Origin: Oligoflexia bacterium
Lineage (GTDB): Bacteria; Bdellovibrionota; Bacteriovoracia; Bacteriovoracales; Bacteriovoracaceae
NCBI GenBank assembly: GCA_015232015.1
Contig: JADGAM010000014.1
Location: 1-46,263 of the forward strand
DNA length: 46,263 bases
Direction: 5' to 3'
Shown: one piece after another, positions 4,576 through 46,263 of the stretch
How positions within the stretch are numbered: position 1 is the stretch's first letter
Layout: every line of letters begins with the position of its first letter
The notes under the pieces: model-generated
Database searches by the model: none
What the model saw: the letters and a program-made list of their open reading frames with translations, nothing else
What the model was told of the DNA's origin: nothing
Position numbers and translations under genes: made by a program

Positions 4576-6021
4576 TTATTTTTTTTTCCAAAGTTCATCT
4601 TTATAAAGAAAATAAACTTCTCTTAAATTTCTTTGAAGATCATCATAAACTTGGTTTTTTCCACTATTAAGACCAACTAAACCAAACCACTCTTCATGGC
4701 CTAGTTCATCTGGGAAAGGAGCTCCCCAAGGCATTCTTGAGTTATGAATAAATGATTCATTAACTTTTTGTTGCTTCCACCACTCATCACTCCATTCAAA
4801 AGCACAACCACCAATTGCAGGTCCAGATTCATTTACTTCTACACTATGTTTAACAATATCCATCCAATTTCCACGATGATACTCGCTTTGAGCAGTTTGA
4901 TCTTCTTCTCCTTGAAAATCCAATCTCTGATTTCCCTTAGCTGCAAAAGCATCAGCACCATATTCAGCAACGAAAATTGGTTTATCAATGTATTTAGTAA
5001 TTTCCTTCCAAATATTTCCGAAAGTATTTCCATGATAAACATTAATACCGAAAATATCTATATCTGGAGCAAGTTCACTGTAATACTTAAATAAACGATC
5101 TCGGTTACCATAATCTCCCCAACTACTAATAGCAACTGGATGATTTGGATCAAGTTGATGAATGAGTTTGGCTGCTTCATTTAAAAAGGTAATGTACTGA
5201 CGTAGATAAACACCAGCATTGCTATTTGTTCCTGGAAATTCATTCTCATTACCTAGCAGCCACATTAGTACATAAGGTTCATCTTTATGGTCCATTACTT
5301 GATCTCTTACATATTCTAGCATTTTTTCTCTTTGAATTGGATCGGTGTAATCTGTACCTTGAGACCAAGGAGCATCTGAGCCAATTGTGTATGCTCCAAA
5401 GAAATTTCCCATGATTACTCTTATTCCATAAGAATAATAAAGATCTCGTAAAACATTTTTATTAAATTCTTCTGCTACGTAACTAGCTTTTGAAATGGAA
5501 CTGTACAATCTGATTGCATTCACACCCATTTCTTTCATTAAAGCAAAGTCACCAACGGTTTTTTCTGAAGGATCTTTTATATTGTTGTTGTTCGAATCCA
5601 CCCAAGTATCGTAGGCAGCATCACATTTGCCATTCCCATTATCATCCCTTTTCATCCAATCGGTTTGTGCTCCAGGAAGTGTATCTGGGCTAAGACCAAT
5701 TTTTGTAGGGGAGTAAGATACAGCTTTCACAACAAAGGGTTCTCCATCAACTAGTAAATTCCACCCTCCCTTATAATTTTTTTCTACTGTTACGATAGAA
5801 GTTAACTTGTTATTTGAATTAGGCGAAAAAAGTGAAACTGATTTATTATTAAAAAGTGGGTATGGAAAATTTGTGATAGACCAAATATCATCATTTATGC
5901 TTGCAGGTTCTTTTTTGAAAAGTTGATGTGCATTAGAATTTGCAGAATAAATTAATAAGAAACAAAATAAAATTAAGAGTAGGCCAATGACCTTTTTGAA
6001 TGAGTAACACACAATATACAT
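4576..6021 (-). CDS. exported clan-A (GH2/GH5-like TIM barrel) glycoside hydrolase
   Basis: A signal peptide (VIGLLLILFCFLLIYSANSNA) precedes a beta/alpha barrel typical of retaining clan GH-A glycosidases. LLGNENE (strand 4) holds the Asn-Glu acid/base and FVAEYGAD (strand 7) the nucleophile Glu. MGVNAIRLYSS is the usual barrel entry motif. After the first strand there is an insert with two Asp/Asn-rich loops (DDNGNGKCD and DSNNNNIKD) that look like EF-hand-type calcium sites. It would act on beta-linked polysaccharide outside the cytoplasm, such as prey or environmental glycans; the substrate is unknown. A GH2 TIM-barrel or GH72-like transglycosylase assignment is equally possible. It is a single gene convergent with the FHA/AgmX operon. 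Confidence 0.75.
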   Translation of the reverse strand: MYIVCYSFKKVIGLLLILFCFLLIYSANSNAHQLFKKEPASINDDIWSITNFPYPLFNNKSVSLFSPNSNNKLTSIVTVEKNYKGGWNLLVDGEPFVVKAVSYSPTKIGLSPDTLPGAQTDWMKRDDNGNGKCDAAYDTWVDSNNNNIKDPSEKTVGDFALMKEMGVNAIRLYSSISKASYVAEEFNKNVLRDLYYSYGIRVIMGNFFGAYTIGSDAPWSQGTDYTDPIQREKMLEYVRDQVMDHKDEPYVLMWLLGNENEFPGTNSNAGVYLRQYITFLNEAAKLIHQLDPNHPVAISSWGDYGNRDRLFKYYSELAPDIDIFGINVYHGNTFGNIWKEITKYIDKPIFVAEYGADAFAAKGNQRLDFQGEEDQTAQSEYHRGNWMDIVKHSVEVNESGPAIGGCAFEWSDEWWKQQKVNESFIHNSRMPWGAPFPDELGHEEWFGLVGLNSGKNQVYDDLQRNLREVYFLYKDELWKKK

Positions 6022-6168
6022 AGATTCTCCCTGTTATAAATTATAAAGTAATAATTTTTATTAATAACTCTTATTAATTAAAAAACTTATCTTGAAATGA
6101 AAATAAAAGGAATTAAAAAATATAAACAAAATCTTTCAAAAGAGGAAAAGGCAACTTTAATAGATTAG

Positions 6169-8002: not shown

Positions 8003-8071
8003 TAAATGCGGATGAAAAATTTCATATTTCTGTCATAAAAATTACTCTGACAAAATCCTTTTATTATATTT

Positions 8072-9172
8072 TTACAATGATTTTGGGGGTATAGTTTTAA
8101 CTATACTAACTTTTTCAGGTGTAATGGAAAATGTTCCATCATCTTTAAATGTAAAAATTCTTTGCCTTTCTAAAATTAAATTTCCTTTTATATTTCCTTT
8201 AATATCAAAATCGATAACTTGCTTGCCATCACCATAATATAGAAGAGAATAATTAATTTTCGTAGTAGCAAATAATTGGTTTCCTATAACATGATAATTA
8301 ATATTTCTCTCGCTCGCTCTTAAGGCAATTTTATCTTGATATTCCTTTTTTATTTCTTTTAATATTATTTCCATGGCCATTGGTTCAAAAGTTTGCGTTC
8401 GACTAGCAAAGGCCTGCAGTATGGCCTGATTTATATTATCCATAAATAAAGATTTATTTTTATCATTTATTAATTTATGTAAATTATCCATTAATATAGA
8501 TTTAAGCATATTTAAACTTTTGATAATTGAATTTTTAGTATCTATACTAACAGTAGATGCAGAATTTGATGTGGGTGCTGATAAAGAGGGAGAGTACACA
8601 TGGATTTCAGAAGTATTATCAAAAATTTTATATGGATATCTTTTGAAATCAGTAAGAATTTGTTTATATAACGATAATTTTTGTTTTTCAACTATTCCTT
8701 TTTTGTTGATAAATTCATTCATAATGGTGGTAGTATTTTTTTTAATTTCATTTAATAAATCCGAAACTGATTCTTGAATATCACTAGTTACTTGCTTCAT
8801 GCTAGATAAGACATCTTCAATGCTAGTGGGTATTTGGGAAGTTGATTGAGGATTTGAAAAAAAAATTCCTTCTAATCCACTGAAAAAACTTTTAAACGTA
8901 GATGCTGCTGATGTTAGATTCTCCTCTAGATAAGAAAATTTTGATTTAGTTTGAACGCTTTGGACGCTGTTGCTTTTTGTACACGAAGTTCCTGTAATTG
9001 CACTTAAGCTTGTACTTGAATCTGGAATAGCATCACTACTATATACATTTGTTGAAGTAAAGAAAATTGAAATGAGTAACAAGGTGATCATTAAAAGCAA
9101 TAACGAAAGAATAATATAATAATTTTTTTTGATGTCCATTTTTGTAAAAATATAATTCATAATAAGGCCCAA
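8072..9172 (-). CDS. membrane-anchored protein of unknown function
   Basis: The 366-residue protein has one N-terminal hydrophobic segment (IILSLLLLMITLLLISIFF), either an anchor or an uncleaved signal. A Ser/Thr-rich stretch and long amphipathic helices follow, with probable coiled coil (SSMKQVTSDIQESVSDLLNE). The C-terminal ~100 residues look like a compact beta domain (YHVIGNQLFATTKINYSLLY ... GNLILERQRIFTF). I recognise no family. It is a single gene, convergent with the DsbA-fold gene. An (AAAAAT)n simple repeat lies in its upstream region. Confidence 0.6.
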   Translation of the reverse strand: MGLIMNYIFTKMDIKKNYYIILSLLLLMITLLLISIFFTSTNVYSSDAIPDSSTSLSAITGTSCTKSNSVQSVQTKSKFSYLEENLTSAASTFKSFFSGLEGIFFSNPQSTSQIPTSIEDVLSSMKQVTSDIQESVSDLLNEIKKNTTTIMNEFINKKGIVEKQKLSLYKQILTDFKRYPYKIFDNTSEIHVYSPSLSAPTSNSASTVSIDTKNSIIKSLNMLKSILMDNLHKLINDKNKSLFMDNINQAILQAFASRTQTFEPMAMEIILKEIKKEYQDKIALRASERNINYHVIGNQLFATTKINYSLLYYGDGKQVIDFDIKGNIKGNLILERQRIFTFKDDGTFSITPEKVSIVKTIPPKSL

Positions 9173-9201
9173 TGTTTAGTATAATAAAGTTAATTAAAAC
9201 G

Positions 9202-9232
9202 AATAAAAAATAAAAATAAAAATAAAAATAAT
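9202..9232. repeat. (AAAAAT)n simple repeat upstream of an exported-protein gene
   Basis: About five tandem hexamers of AAAAAT type lie 30-60 nt upstream of the minus-strand gene ending at 8072. Such tracts can slip during replication, but this base composition is also expected in AT-rich intergenic DNA. No functional claim. Confidence 0.5.
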
Positions 9233-9410
9233 TTAAAATTAATCATATGAATTCTACTCTAAATAAATATTGTTTTAATTTTTGTTAATTATTATTTTAG
9301 ACGAACTTTAATACTTTCATCTGTTTAGGATGAAAATAATAAAATAATTATGTTTAGATATTTTTTTGAAGTGTGTATAAAAGTTGGCAATTAATAATTA
9401 CAAACAATTT

Positions 9411-11711
9411 CTAACTTAAAAACAGCATATCGTAATATTTAGGAAGATACCAATGTTCAGCGGCCACCAATTCCTCTAGATCGTTGCAAAGTAAGGAAAT
9501 TTCTTGGGATAATGGAAGTAATGTAGAAGTGATTTCTTTGTTATTGATAGCATTGTTGGTATGAGCACTATGATTATTAGATAGAGATAATTCTTTTATT
9601 AGATTATTTAATTTGTTGGTTTTACTAAATAGAGATTGAGATTTGTTATTTAATTTTTGCAACATGCTTTTTACATATAAATTATCACAATCAGTTTGGT
9701 AACTTTTATCACCATCATATATTTTATCAAGGGAGGTAATAAATTTACTTAATTTCAATTTATAATTTATTACGGAAGGTAATACATGTTGATTGACCAT
9801 GGATATTAGTGTTGCAAATTCAATTTTTAATTGCATATGATAACGTTCCATTAATACGTTATATCTAGTGTTGAGCTCATCTGCTCTATAAATTCCATGT
9901 TTGATTAAAAAATTTGTTTTACATTCATTGCTTAAAACTTCTATTGCTTCCGTTGAATTAATTAAATTAGGAAGACCTCTTCTTGCTGCTTCTAATTTCC
10001 ATTCATCACTGTAACCATCGCCATTAAATACAACTTTTTCTGAGTTTTTAAACCATCTACTAATTAACGCCTCAATAGCATCATCGACACTAAATCCTTT
10101 TGTTAGATGATTTTCAATAAAACAATTTGAATCAACTAATACATCTATTACAGCAGCATTTAAAATACTTAAAGGAAATCCGATAGGGGCCGATGATCCT
10201 ACAGCTCGAAATTCAAAACGATTTCCGGTAAATGCAAAAGGCGAAGTGCGATTTCTGTCGGTATTATCGATTAATAATTGGGTCAATTGTTTTGCTCCCA
10301 AATTTAATATTCTGTTGCCATTACCGTTATGGTTATTGTTAACATTGCCATTTTTAGAGTGAGAAGTTGTCCCATTGGCGATTGATTTAAAAATGTCTGA
10401 CAAGGTATCTCCTAAAAATACGGAGATAATAGAAGGAGGGGCCTCATTTGCTCCTAAGCGATGATCATTTCCAGCTGATGCTACACTCATTCTTAAAACC
10501 TCTGCATGTCTATTTACTGCTTCGACAATTATTGCAATAAGAGCTAAAAAACGTTTGCTGGATTTATCTTCTGAAATTGAATTTGAGTTTGAATAATTTG
10601 CATCGGTATTTAATTCTAATAAATTATTTCCTTGGTCATCACTAAGAGACCAATTAACATGTTTTCCGCTTCCATTAATTTTTGAAAATGGTTTTTCATG
10701 AAGAAGTGCTTTGAAGTCGTGGCGTTCAGCGATTTTTTTTATTATTACCATTACCAGTTGATTTTGGTCAGATGATAAGTTGGCCTCAGAATAGAATGGT
10801 GCCATCTCAAATTGTCCAGGTGCCACCTCATTGTGTCTTGTTTTAGAGGGGATTCCTAAGCGATATAGTTCGTAATCTAATTCTTGCATGAATGCTAGAA
10901 CTCGATCATTTACGTTTCCAAAATAGTGATCTTCTAATTGTTGATTTTTAGCAGTTAAAGAACCAAAAAGGGTTCTACCACACATTACAAGGTCAGGGCG
11001 AAGATTGTAATAAGCTTTATCAACTAAAAAGTATTCTTGTTCTGCGCCTGAATTTACGGTTACATGCTTTACCTCGGGAAAACCGATCAGATTTAAAAAA
11101 CGAGTGGCCTCATCAGATATTTTGGAAATACTTCTTAGAAGAGGAGTCTTAATATCTAAGGCGGCACCATTAGGAGCAGCAAATGCAGTAGGGATACATA
11201 GAACTTTTCCATTTATTCCCTCGGTGATGAACATAGGAGATGACATATCCCAAACAGTATAACCTCTGGCCTCAAAAGTTGAGCGTGCTCCTCCTGAAGG
11301 GAAGGAGGAAGCATCAGGACCACCACAAAGTAATTGAGAAGCAGTTAACTTATCTAGAGGAAGGATTTCGCCATTTTTATAGATGAAATTTAAGAATGAA
11401 TCATGTTTTTCAGCTGAGTTGCCCGTTAGAGGTTGAAACCAATGACAGAAGTGAGTTGCTCCCTTATTTAAGGCCCACTCACTCACAGCATGAGCTATCA
11501 TTTCAGCGTGTTCTTTAAGAAGTAATTTTCCAGTTAGAGAAATCTCTTGCATCTCTTTTTTTACACTTTCTGGAATTCCTAATGCTTTTTTAAAATCAAA
11601 AACATTTTCAGCATAGTACTCACTGATTTTTAAAGTTCGCCCGTTTTCATTTTTGGGGAAATGGATTTTTCTAATTAAACGACTAGTGGCGTTGTCTCGA
11701 TAAGATTTCAT
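9411..11711 (-). CDS. glnN: glutamine synthetase type III
   Basis: This catalyses ATP-dependent formation of glutamine from glutamate and ammonia in the cytoplasm. GSIII hallmarks are clear: the GSIII-specific N-terminal region, RHNEVAPGQFEMAP, the glutamate/ATP site segment KINGSGKHVNWSL, AGNDHRLGANEAPPS and NRFEFRAVGSS. At 766 residues it is slightly longer than the usual ~700-730, explained in part by Asn/Ser-rich inserts (SKNGNVNNNHNGNGN at about 440 and SNNHSAHTNNAINN near the C terminus). The start is supported by AGGAG six nucleotides before the ATG. It is a single gene; no P-II or ammonium transporter gene is adjacent. GSIII enzymes are generally not adenylylated, so control is likely transcriptional or translational. 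Confidence 0.95.
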   Translation of the reverse strand: MKSYRDNATSRLIRKIHFPKNENGRTLKISEYYAENVFDFKKALGIPESVKKEMQEISLTGKLLLKEHAEMIAHAVSEWALNKGATHFCHWFQPLTGNSAEKHDSFLNFIYKNGEILPLDKLTASQLLCGGPDASSFPSGGARSTFEARGYTVWDMSSPMFITEGINGKVLCIPTAFAAPNGAALDIKTPLLRSISKISDEATRFLNLIGFPEVKHVTVNSGAEQEYFLVDKAYYNLRPDLVMCGRTLFGSLTAKNQQLEDHYFGNVNDRVLAFMQELDYELYRLGIPSKTRHNEVAPGQFEMAPFYSEANLSSDQNQLVMVIIKKIAERHDFKALLHEKPFSKINGSGKHVNWSLSDDQGNNLLELNTDANYSNSNSISEDKSSKRFLALIAIIVEAVNRHAEVLRMSVASAGNDHRLGANEAPPSIISVFLGDTLSDIFKSIANGTTSHSKNGNVNNNHNGNGNRILNLGAKQLTQLLIDNTDRNRTSPFAFTGNRFEFRAVGSSAPIGFPLSILNAAVIDVLVDSNCFIENHLTKGFSVDDAIEALISRWFKNSEKVVFNGDGYSDEWKLEAARRGLPNLINSTEAIEVLSNECKTNFLIKHGIYRADELNTRYNVLMERYHMQLKIEFATLISMVNQHVLPSVINYKLKLSKFITSLDKIYDGDKSYQTDCDNLYVKSMLQKLNNKSQSLFSKTNKLNNLIKELSLSNNHSAHTNNAINNKEITSTLLPLSQEISLLCNDLEELVAAEHWYLPKYYDMLFLS

Positions 11712-19715: not shown

Positions 19716-20987
19716 ATGAAAACGAAAGTGATAAAGTTTTTAATTTCTTTAACAGCTTCATTATTGCTATTATTGTTATTGTCCTTATTATGGACTTCCT
19801 TGGTATTTGCAGAAGATAATGTATTAAATAAAGAATTAGCAGCATCAACACTTCTGCCATTGGAATTTCAATTTTTAATTGAAAGTTATCAACACTCAAA
19901 TCTTACAGATAAAGAAAAAAATGAATTTATTGATTTAATAAAAAAATTGGATATCAATTTAAAAGTGTTGCCACAAAAATATATTTATTTTGTGATTAAG
20001 AGTGAAATATATAAAGAATTGCTTGAGAACAAAATTATATATAGAAATAATGAACAGCAGAGATCTAGCACTTCACAGTTAATGGAAACAGATGAAGTAT
20101 TAGATAGCTTAAGTATTAAAAAAATAAATAAATTGTTATCTAATAATTATTTGATTTACACTTCATTTGGCAAATGGCTTATTGAATCTTTGCAAGCAGA
20201 TATATGGGAATTAACCTCTTCGAAATTTTTTGATGAAAAATTAAATAAAAATAATAATAGCGCTAGAGATAAAAAATTTCTTCGAGAGTCAGAAAAAATT
20301 GAAAAAAATAAAATTCAAAATAAGAAAAAGTTATTAACTCCTATTTATCAAGAAGTAATTAAAAAAAAGGCAGAGGATTTTAATGAGTTGTTGAAACCAA
20401 TAATGCACTCAATCCTAGTAAAACTTGTTTATCAAACAACAATATTTGTAAATTTTACTATGTATAAATTTGCACCCAAAGCAAAAGCTGCAAGCAATTT
20501 AACTTTTTATCAATTTGATTGGATTGATAACAAATCAACATCACCACAACCAAGACAACAAAAAATAATAGGTAGTATAATAGATGCTAAAGTCGAAGGG
20601 GGACAATCTAACACTTCAGAAAATATTGAAAAATATAAAGAGATGAAAAAAAATGAAGCATATAAAATTTTAGATTCTATAAACAAAGAATCATCTAATG
20701 ACGTTGGTGATGAAAATAATGAAATATCAGTAGAGATAGATAAGATCACTAGTAGTGAAAGTGATGGTAGTAGTAGTAGCAATAGTGTTAGCGATATTAA
20801 AACTGATGATATTGTGGAGGATACTTGGGTCCCAGTTGATGATAGTGACAATTCTGTTGCTTATAAAAAGAAAATTAAAAGAAAGGAAATATTGTCTGCA
20901 ACAGAAGTTTCTAATAAAGATAAGAATAAAGATAAAGACAAGAATAGGAATAAAGACAAAGATAGCGATGATTGGACGCCAAGATAA
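19716..20987 (+). CDS. exported protein of unknown function with charged low-complexity tail
   Basis: The ATG follows the upstream TAA with no gap. The signal peptide is long and leucine-rich (LISLTASLLLLLLLSLLWTSLVFA). Residues 45-270 are helical and Lys/Asn-rich. The C-terminal 150 residues are Ser/Asp/Lys low complexity, ending in repeated DKNKDKDKNRNKDKD. Last of the three exported-protein genes; its TAA abuts the stop of the convergent transglutaminase-like gene with no space between. No family recognised. Confidence 0.55.
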   Translation: MKTKVIKFLISLTASLLLLLLLSLLWTSLVFAEDNVLNKELAASTLLPLEFQFLIESYQHSNLTDKEKNEFIDLIKKLDINLKVLPQKYIYFVIKSEIYKELLENKIIYRNNEQQRSSTSQLMETDEVLDSLSIKKINKLLSNNYLIYTSFGKWLIESLQADIWELTSSKFFDEKLNKNNNSARDKKFLRESEKIEKNKIQNKKKLLTPIYQEVIKKKAEDFNELLKPIMHSILVKLVYQTTIFVNFTMYKFAPKAKAASNLTFYQFDWIDNKSTSPQPRQQKIIGSIIDAKVEGGQSNTSENIEKYKEMKKNEAYKILDSINKESSNDVGDENNEISVEIDKITSSESDGSSSSNSVSDIKTDDIVEDTWVPVDDSDNSVAYKKKIKRKEILSATEVSNKDKNKDKDKNRNKDKDSDDWTPR

Positions 20988-22139: not shown

Positions 22140-22763
22140 TTTTTTTCTCCTTCTCGTAATAGAGATGTTAAGTAATTCTGTGATTAATAAAAAACAGAAT
22201 GGTTTTGTTAATAAAATTTTTTAATATTTTTAAACTATATAGCTCTTAGATCTCCCTAGAATGAATTAGTAAGGTTTCATTTTTTGAGTTAATAACTTGT
22301 TAATTGGAACGTAATTATAAAGAGAATTTATTTAATAAACTAAAGTTATTTTTTCATTCTAATAATTTCGATTAGATAAAAATTTTTAAAAAAAATGCGC
22401 GAAAAAAAGTGCCTTAAAAAATTGGCATTTTGGGCCTATTTGGATTTATTTACAAATTTCTAATTAAGGGTTGACTAAATTTTGATTTGTTAACTATATT
22501 CGCAGAACATAAGCGACAAATTAATGTATGAAAGAAGTTCTTCTATTGAAAGAAAATCACAAAAAAATTTAAAAAAAATTTTTTATTTTTGACAAACCAA
22601 AAAATTGTTATCAACATAAAAAATAAGAATTTTTTTGTTCATAAACAATGTGATTTATTTTATATATATTATTACTCGTTTAGAAGAGTTTATTAAGTTA
22701 AATAAGATTTAGTACAACGTCTTATTTATTAACAACCACTTTTTCAGACCCCTAGGAGGTTTT
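22140..22763. other. long AT-rich intergenic region upstream of a small exported protein
   Basis: 624 nt divide two divergent genes. I see no ORF with a ribosome site. It contains a sigma70-like promoter at 22471-22500 and many A/T homopolymer runs. The downstream leader would be roughly 260 nt, long enough for RNA-level control, but I see no convincing riboswitch fold. Confidence 0.5.
22471..22500 (+). promoter_or_regulatory. sigma70-like promoter
   Basis: TTGACT (22471-22476), an 18-nt spacer and TATATT (22495-22500) match the -35/-10 consensus at 5/6 and 5/6. It points toward the small Cys-rich protein gene at 22764. Another promoter closer to the gene is possible. Confidence 0.5.
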
Positions 22764-44903: not shown

Positions 44904-44941
44904 TTAGTTAGTCGCTGGCGCAAGCGCCGGCGACTAACTAA
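44904..44941. terminator. 18-bp GC-rich hairpin filling a convergent intergenic gap
   Basis: TTAGTTAGTCGCTGGCGC pairs with GCGCCGGCGACTAACTAA (one G-U) around AA. It occupies the whole 34-nt gap between the TAG of the UbiB gene and the TAG of the convergent GNAT gene, and includes the latter. No T-tract on the + side. A convergent-gene terminator or mRNA 3'-end stabiliser is likely. Confidence 0.65.
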
Positions 44942-45855
44942 ATGCTATCGAGACCTGAAATAAAGATGGGTTTACCATAATGTTTCCATTCAGAAAGAGG
45001 ATTTGGTCCAAAAATAAATGTTAAGAATTTTTCAATCGTTTCAAAGTAAATTTGTTTGTTGTAGGTGAAAGTAATATTATTGTTATTTATTGATTTAATT
45101 TTAATTTCTTCATTGGACCATTGGTGGATAAAGTTTAAAAATATTTTTTTATCTCCAATTTTAATTAATCCCATATATTTTTTCTCAAATTTAGCGTCAA
45201 AGAAATTAGTGCTACCACTTTCTGGCAACCAAATTTTTGCATGTGGATTTTGTTCAAAAATAATAGGTAATATGGAGCTTTGATGTTCATTTAATATAGC
45301 AAATTCGTGGACAACGTTTTTTAAATCTTGACCTTTGTTAGCAAAATAATAAGCAACAATTTGTGAATCTGTACTTTGTTTTTGATTTTGAATATTCGTG
45401 ATAATGAACAGATCTGCTGAAGTAATTTTTTCTATTAATTCCCAATCTGTTTTCTCTCTGTGAAAGGTAGTGTATTGCTGTTCAATTATATTTCTATATA
45501 ATTCATGAATCTGCTTTTTTTCTGAATGAGAGATACTTTTGTAAAGTGTTTTAGTTATTAAATAGTGATTATTGTGATTTTTTTTTGAATCTGATTGAGA
45601 GCAAGAATATTCTATTTGTCCGATAGACAAATGGAAATCAAATTTATTGTAGAGATCAATTAAATCACTCCAGAGTAAAAACATAGCAATATTTTTAGTA
45701 TACTTATCAAAGATATGATTTAATAATATTTTAGAGAGACCGATATTCCTAAATTCTTTTGAAACAACAATTCCTCTGAGCATTGATTGAGGCGATATTA
45801 GTATTAATACGAAGTCCCATGATATCCTCCTTGATACGCGGGCGGGCCAGACCAT
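44938..45855 (-). CDS. GNAT-family protein truncated at its N terminus by fusion to flagellin DNA
   Basis: LRGIVVSKEFRNIGLSKILLNHIF is GNAT motif A (acetyl-CoA loop R-N-x-G-L), followed by LWSDLIDLYNKFDFHLSIGQIEY, motif B. A long C-terminal region of about 220 residues follows. Everything upstream of LRGIVV (about 45780) is not GNAT: MVWPARVSRRISWDFVLILIS is a frame-shifted reading of flagellin leader and codons. The first ~100 residues of the GNAT domain are thus missing, and acetyl-transfer activity is doubtful. A divergent apparent paralogue starts at 46142 with the missing kind of N terminus. Confidence 0.7.
   Translation of the reverse strand: MVWPARVSRRISWDFVLILISPQSMLRGIVVSKEFRNIGLSKILLNHIFDKYTKNIAMFLLWSDLIDLYNKFDFHLSIGQIEYSCSQSDSKKNHNNHYLITKTLYKSISHSEKKQIHELYRNIIEQQYTTFHREKTDWELIEKITSADLFIITNIQNQKQSTDSQIVAYYFANKGQDLKNVVHEFAILNEHQSSILPIIFEQNPHAKIWLPESGSTNFFDAKFEKKYMGLIKIGDKKIFLNFIHQWSNEEIKIKSINNNNITFTYNKQIYFETIEKFLTFIFGPNPLSEWKHYGKPIFISGLDSI
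45749..45820 (-). pseudogene. flagellin 5' fragment (ribosome site and first 16 codons)
   Basis: On the minus strand AAGGAGG-ATATC-ATG starts MGLRINTNIASINAQR, the canonical flagellin N terminus. The reading then becomes NCCFKRI and stops at TAG. The break coincides with entry into the GNAT gene; the shared string around CAGAGGAATT is a candidate microhomology. The remaining ~250 flagellin residues are absent from the window. Confidence 0.85.
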
Positions 45856-46141
45856 CCTAGTCTTAGCAAAAGATTAAGTTTACATATACATTAAAAGTTT
45901 TTTGCTTTCATTGAGTGTAACTTATCTTCACACAAATCATTTCGTATAAACAAAAAAAAACTTGAAGAAAAAAATAAAAATTTTTGATTTTTTAACAAAA
46001 AAATATTGTATTTCTTGTAAATTTAACAAGTTATATGCGTAAAAATATTGTAAAATATTTTTATAATAAAAAATAAATTTTATTGTATTTTGTAAAACAA
46101 TATAACAGTAACTTAAATTCCTCTCCCTAAAAGCTTTGATA

Positions 46142-46263
46142 ATGGAAAATATAAAAATTTCTACTTTAGATACTGTTCCTCATTTAGCAAAGGCGGTTAT
46201 TAATCTTATAGAAGATTCTTTTCACTATGATTCCAATAATAATTTTGAAATAGATTTTGCTCC
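46142..46263 (+). CDS. GNAT-like protein, N-terminal part (runs off the window)
   Basis: Forty codons from the ATG are open to the edge. The sequence (ISTLDTVPHLAKAVINLIED, then SFHYDSNNNFEIDFA) resembles the first helices of the same GNAT subfamily as the neighbouring truncated gene, as I remember it from Bdellovibrionota proteins. It is divergent from the flagellin-GNAT chimera across about 290 nt of very AT-rich DNA. Ribosome site is unclear. Confidence 0.5.
   Translation, partial: MENIKISTLDTVPHLAKAVINLIEDSFHYDSNNNFEIDFA

Follow-up and report, generated by a model that had tools for sequence, protein, structure and literature searches.

The window, by which we mean the whole stretch of DNA analysed here (46,263 bp), is the complete contig C55 of a draft assembly, G000, that consists of 413 contigs totalling 4.9 Mb. 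A flagellin start at 45820, read from the minus strand, is preceded by a Shine-Dalgarno sequence; there, AAGGAGGATATC-ATG (ATG at 45820–45818) opens the reading frame of MGLRINTNIASINAQRN, corresponding to codons 1–17 of flagellin 1 (45770–45820). Below approximately 45774, the same strand carries the DNA GGAATTGTTGTTTCAAAAGAATTT, which encodes motif A of a GNAT-family acetyltransferase (..GIVVSKEFRNIGLSKILLNHIF..) in a frame different from that of the flagellin. The crossover from flagellin to GNAT motif A lies near 45771–45776 and is out of frame, and the flagellin frame reaches a stop codon shortly past the joint. The original prediction, which described a ribosome site and flagellin codons that pass into the motif-A sequence of a GNAT gene in a different frame, was correct as an observation on the assembly. 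The 305-aa open reading frame at 44938–45855 is artificial, arising where the GNAT frame reads through into the leader of the flagellin.

The features on either side of the joint were delimited by comparison with G001, a same-genus genome (record JADFZW010000021.1, isolate nKLKbin12). The C-terminal part of the GNAT gene, which starts at motif A and includes the stop codon, occupies 44938–45774 on the minus strand in its native orientation and shows 57% identity to the G001 GNAT. The joint itself (45769–45776, minus strand) falls at the breakpoint of the G001 alignment, 493 bp from the contig end. The bases common to both of its sides amount to at least GGAA (45774–45771) and at most GAGGAATT (45776–45769). 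The codon that reads Arg at the joint in the window is Gly in 77 of 77 aligned relatives, so that the Arg codon derives from flagellin DNA, and the overlap is known only as 4–8 nt because the native GNAT bases of G000 are missing there; the microhomology noticed in the original prediction is present, albeit shorter than it had appeared. From 45771 to 46263 extends an inverted segment composed of the flagellin start, the intergenic region, and the GNAT N-terminus, running in reverse to G001 C13:22571-23100 with 70% DNA identity. According to the DNA alignment to G001, the intergenic region of the divergent genes, with the flagellin leader and the presumed promoters, is located in inverted form at 45821–46141. 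It is followed on the plus strand by GNAT codons 1–40 (46142–46263, 60% identity to residues 1–40 of the G001 GNAT), which are truncated by the contig end.

When the gene order was compared across relatives, matches to the GNAT protein were found in 26 of the 39 genomes searched, and all 12 family genomes examined (G001 and eleven others) had an intact GNAT gene that was located upstream of flagellin 1 and encoded on the other strand. A second full-length flagellin gene came next in 10 of these 12, while in L038 and L039 the second flagellin was cut or partly matched. Likewise, among 80 named loci retrieved with the flagellin query, most of them labelled Bacteriovoracaceae, Halobacteriovorax, Bacteriovorax or Bdellovibrionales, the GNAT gene lay upstream on the opposite strand in 76, at a distance of no more than about 0.5 kb in 75 of these and of about 2.8 kb in L211. 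Of the remaining four, L218 carries the GNAT gene elsewhere; no GNAT gene is seen in the other three, and in two of these the upstream sequence amounts to at most 313 bp. A search of named genomes using the GNAT C-terminus as the query yielded no match. Judged from gene order, the native arrangement can be regarded as settled, with GNAT and flagellin 1 as divergent neighbours across the Bacteriovoracaceae, and the two "GNAT genes" of the original prediction are halves of one.

Some further properties of the GNAT gene were observed. The G001 protein belongs to Acetyltransf_9 (Pfam) and has a long C-terminal part. It diverges fast, with 57% identity within the genus compared to 99% for the portion of flagellin 1 on contig C86. 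In L218, the gene (9016–10050) lies on the flagellin's other flank and on the reverse of its usual strand, and it forms an uninterrupted match to residues 3–371. Since the linkage between GNAT and flagellin 1 persists in 76 of 80 loci (L178–L257), the conserved gene order suggests that the GNAT protein may have a role related to the flagellum.

Against this native order, the window is collinear with G001 from approximately 38.7 kb up to 45771, and the segment 45771–46263 aligns to the same G001 locus in the opposite orientation. The points joined in the window are about 670 bp apart in G001, on opposite strands. The alignment shows an in-place inversion whose limits are GNAT codon ~86 and flagellin codon 17, and the gene start at 46142 is, on the same comparison, the missing N-terminus of the one GNAT gene, reversed. 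The replacement of the N-terminal half of the acetyltransferase by a flagellin leader, as originally proposed, is accordingly better described as a local inversion or fold-back of normally divergent neighbours, and a second GNAT gene at 46142 was ruled out, as the sequence there aligns with residues 1–40 of the single GNAT. The continuation of flagellin 1 was located on contig C86 (1–717), which opens at codon 45 of this gene and goes on to flagellin 2 and one further gene in the same order as in G001; its flagellin 1 part and the G001 copy share 99% identity across 238 aa. Flagellin loci occur in G000 on C86, C299, C358, and C91. These are separate genes, and the duplicated flagellin copy that had been envisaged was discarded. 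GNAT codons ~41–85 and flagellin codons 18–44 were not found in the G000 assembly, and the native joints are absent from it. Elsewhere in the window, the syntenic partner in G001 switches from C3 (window 1–22 kb) to C13 (window 38.7–46.3 kb), which indicates either a rearrangement between G000 and G001 or a contig end at ~22–38.7 kb.

The leader of flagellin 1 (window 45821–45875, minus strand; at the equivalent place in L178–L257) was also considered. The motif CAAGGAGGA occupies the Shine-Dalgarno position before the ATG in 78 of 81 flagellin 1 leaders. Upstream, a hairpin of variable sequence whose loop contains or adjoins GGA was detected in 50 of 80 relatives, compared to 12 of 400 shuffled leaders (per-sequence test). 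The genes csrA and fliW were each present in 15 of the 16 family genomes searched, and G000 has both; a search against Rfam gave no match at the leader. Control of flagellin by CsrA and FliW is known, as in the case of Bacillus subtilis hag. The flagellin 1 leader looks like one of the CsrA-FliW-controlled type and would match the control of hag.

The joint was searched for in other genomes, given that its presence in the genome of a relative had been named as the sign that would confirm a real event. No such junction was encountered: with up to 3 mismatches allowed, it was absent from all 128 other family genomes, no exact match was present in the viral contigs searched, and the flipped arrangement occurred in none of the 80 named loci. 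The reciprocal joint expected at the other end of an inversion, between GNAT codon ~85 and flagellin codon 18, was not found in the G000 assembly.

Further inverted joints were identified within the same assembly. Perfect inverted repeats with long spacers were scanned in 1.19 Mb of G000 and 1.3 Mb of G001, giving six hits in G000, three of which were counted as additional inverted joints. On contig C54 (L078, 9144–10282), the contig end is inverted. This splits two genes, one of them surface-protein-like and the other truA at its start (truA being assigned by visual inspection of the sequence). A 109-bp inverted copy there reaches the last base of the contig, the alignment to G001 confirms the inversion, and the geometry is the same as in C55. 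On contig C413 (L113), a 94-bp inverted piece of rsmG at 8005–8098, whose source lies 2 kb off at 5941–6034, interrupts parB and replaces a core part of it (both genes named by eye from gene order and sequence). The parB gene of G001 has an uninterrupted reading frame and is collinear to the left and right of the insertion point, and the inserted piece is probably an artefact of the same kind as the C55 joint. The third case, on contig C358 (L084), is an inverted tail of 42 bp that borders an N-gap (20062–20103 and 22266–22307), with its source 2.2 kb away. An imperfect pair on C77 and a 22-bp pair on C333 were not counted as chimeras, since no broken gene is tied to either; the former (L146, 4249–4360 and 8100–8216) has arms of ~0.1 kb that match imperfectly in inverted orientation across a spacer of 3.7 kb, and it may be a native repeat or a chimera. 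The scan of G001 revealed no inverted joints of this kind, only a multi-copy family, a simple repeat, and one pair of 28 bp whose copies are separated by 73 bp. Among 222 G000–G001 gene pairs (212 kb), the GNAT gene of the window was the only split gene, which implies that such joints are sparse in the G000 assembly, and no further small inversion appeared among the syntenic blocks listed.

We do not regard the flagellin–GNAT joint as a real feature, and it almost certainly does not represent a true fusion gene. It is very probably a fold-back (inverted) template-switch chimera produced during whole-genome or library amplification and captured at a contig end, an interpretation favoured because the segment is inverted with respect to all relatives, both missing halves were located, the overlap is short, the joint is missing from every other genome searched, and further inverted joints exist in the assembly. 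In the proposed mechanism, the stretch that separates the divergent GNAT and flagellin genes would be copied by a growing strand that begins in the GNAT N-terminus, reaches flagellin codon 17, and releases there. The released strand would then re-anneal through the 4–8 common bases to GNAT motif A on the nearby opposite strand and extend into the GNAT C-terminus. The resulting product, GNAT-C followed by the flagellin start, the intergenic region, and GNAT-N in inverted form, would have been assembled as the end of C55, and the true continuation of the flagellin gene would have gone to contig C86; the organism itself would make no fusion protein. We infer that the event took place in vitro and, from the pattern of the joints, that the amplification would have been multiple displacement amplification (MDA). 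The sparseness of such joints in G000 counts against this account.

Several features of the data set correspond to MDA. In the native order, the parts that were joined are near neighbours (~670 bp apart in G001) on opposite strands, they share a short overlap (4–8 nt), and unrelated joints of a similar type occur on C54, C413, and C358. Among published MDA chimeras, 85% were inverted (Lasken and Stockwell 2007, PMC1855051), and overlaps were mostly 5–8 nt, with a mode of 6, at distances of 0–5000 nt (PMC4595205); overlaps of up to 21 nt have been reported for inverted chimeras. The C55 joint resembles the inverted chimeras of phi29 MDA in that a few common bases connect segments less than 1 kb apart, one inverted relative to the other, and part of the intervening sequence is lost, and the inverted joining of nearby segments is the commonest class of MDA chimera (PMC1855051). 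Unlike those chimeras, which were described from read data, the C55 joint is known from the assembly alone.

An alternative is a real inversion of ~0.65 kb in the sampled cell or population, arising by microhomology-mediated template switching or recombination and breaking both GNAT and flagellin 1. The geometry is equally that of a clean inversion, into which the end of C55, a gap of ~0.2 kb, and C86 would fit, and the presence of other flagellin genes means that the loss of one might be tolerated. However, such an inversion is absent from every other genome searched, its reciprocal joint is not in the assembly, and it would break a flagellin gene whose 99% identity to the G001 copy (238 aa) suggests strong constraint, while similar damage affects parB and truA with its neighbour in the same assembly. 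We consider it unlikely. If the inversion were nonetheless present in part of the population, silencing flagellin 1 and GNAT, it would constitute an undescribed flagellar on/off switch of the Bacteriovoracaceae, a scenario that appears highly improbable.

A programmed invertible element, a phase switch under which flagellin 1 and GNAT would be turned on and off jointly, is extremely improbable. Invertible flagellin phase switches are known, such as the Hin/hix system of Salmonella, and the C55 block resembles them in being a small reversed piece that includes the beginning of a flagellin gene and the sequence upstream of it; it covers the starts of both genes plus the intergenic region, and a flip would turn both genes off. 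In contrast to Hin/hix-type switches, the block has no end repeats resembling recombination sites, is not conserved, and destroys both flanking genes when flipped. At most 8 nt are common at the joint, and conserved inverted repeats at both ends were not found in the 74 loci compared. In these loci, the longest match between GNAT and the flagellin start averaged 7.41 nt within a locus compared to 7.44 nt between unrelated loci; the within-locus match is thus no longer than the between-locus match, which argues against a switch. Furthermore, both orientations were not seen in related genomes, the flipped form being confined to G000 (0 of 80 named loci). Finally, a pure assembler misjoin involving no chimeric molecule might be suspected from a contig end only 493 bp away but is barely credible, given that 4–8 common bases are far below usual k-mer sizes and too few to confuse an assembler, so that a chimeric molecule is needed. 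Of the two options left open by the original prediction, a true rearrangement through microhomology and a chimera of the assembly, the evidence therefore favours the chimera, in a form other than a simple misjoin.

The C55 joint should thus be taken as a caution against interpreting such an arrangement as a gene fusion. In the G000 draft, local inverted joints break the GNAT, flagellin, parB, and truA genes as well as a surface-protein-like neighbour, and the annotation of these genes in this member of the Bacteriovoracaceae would be misled.
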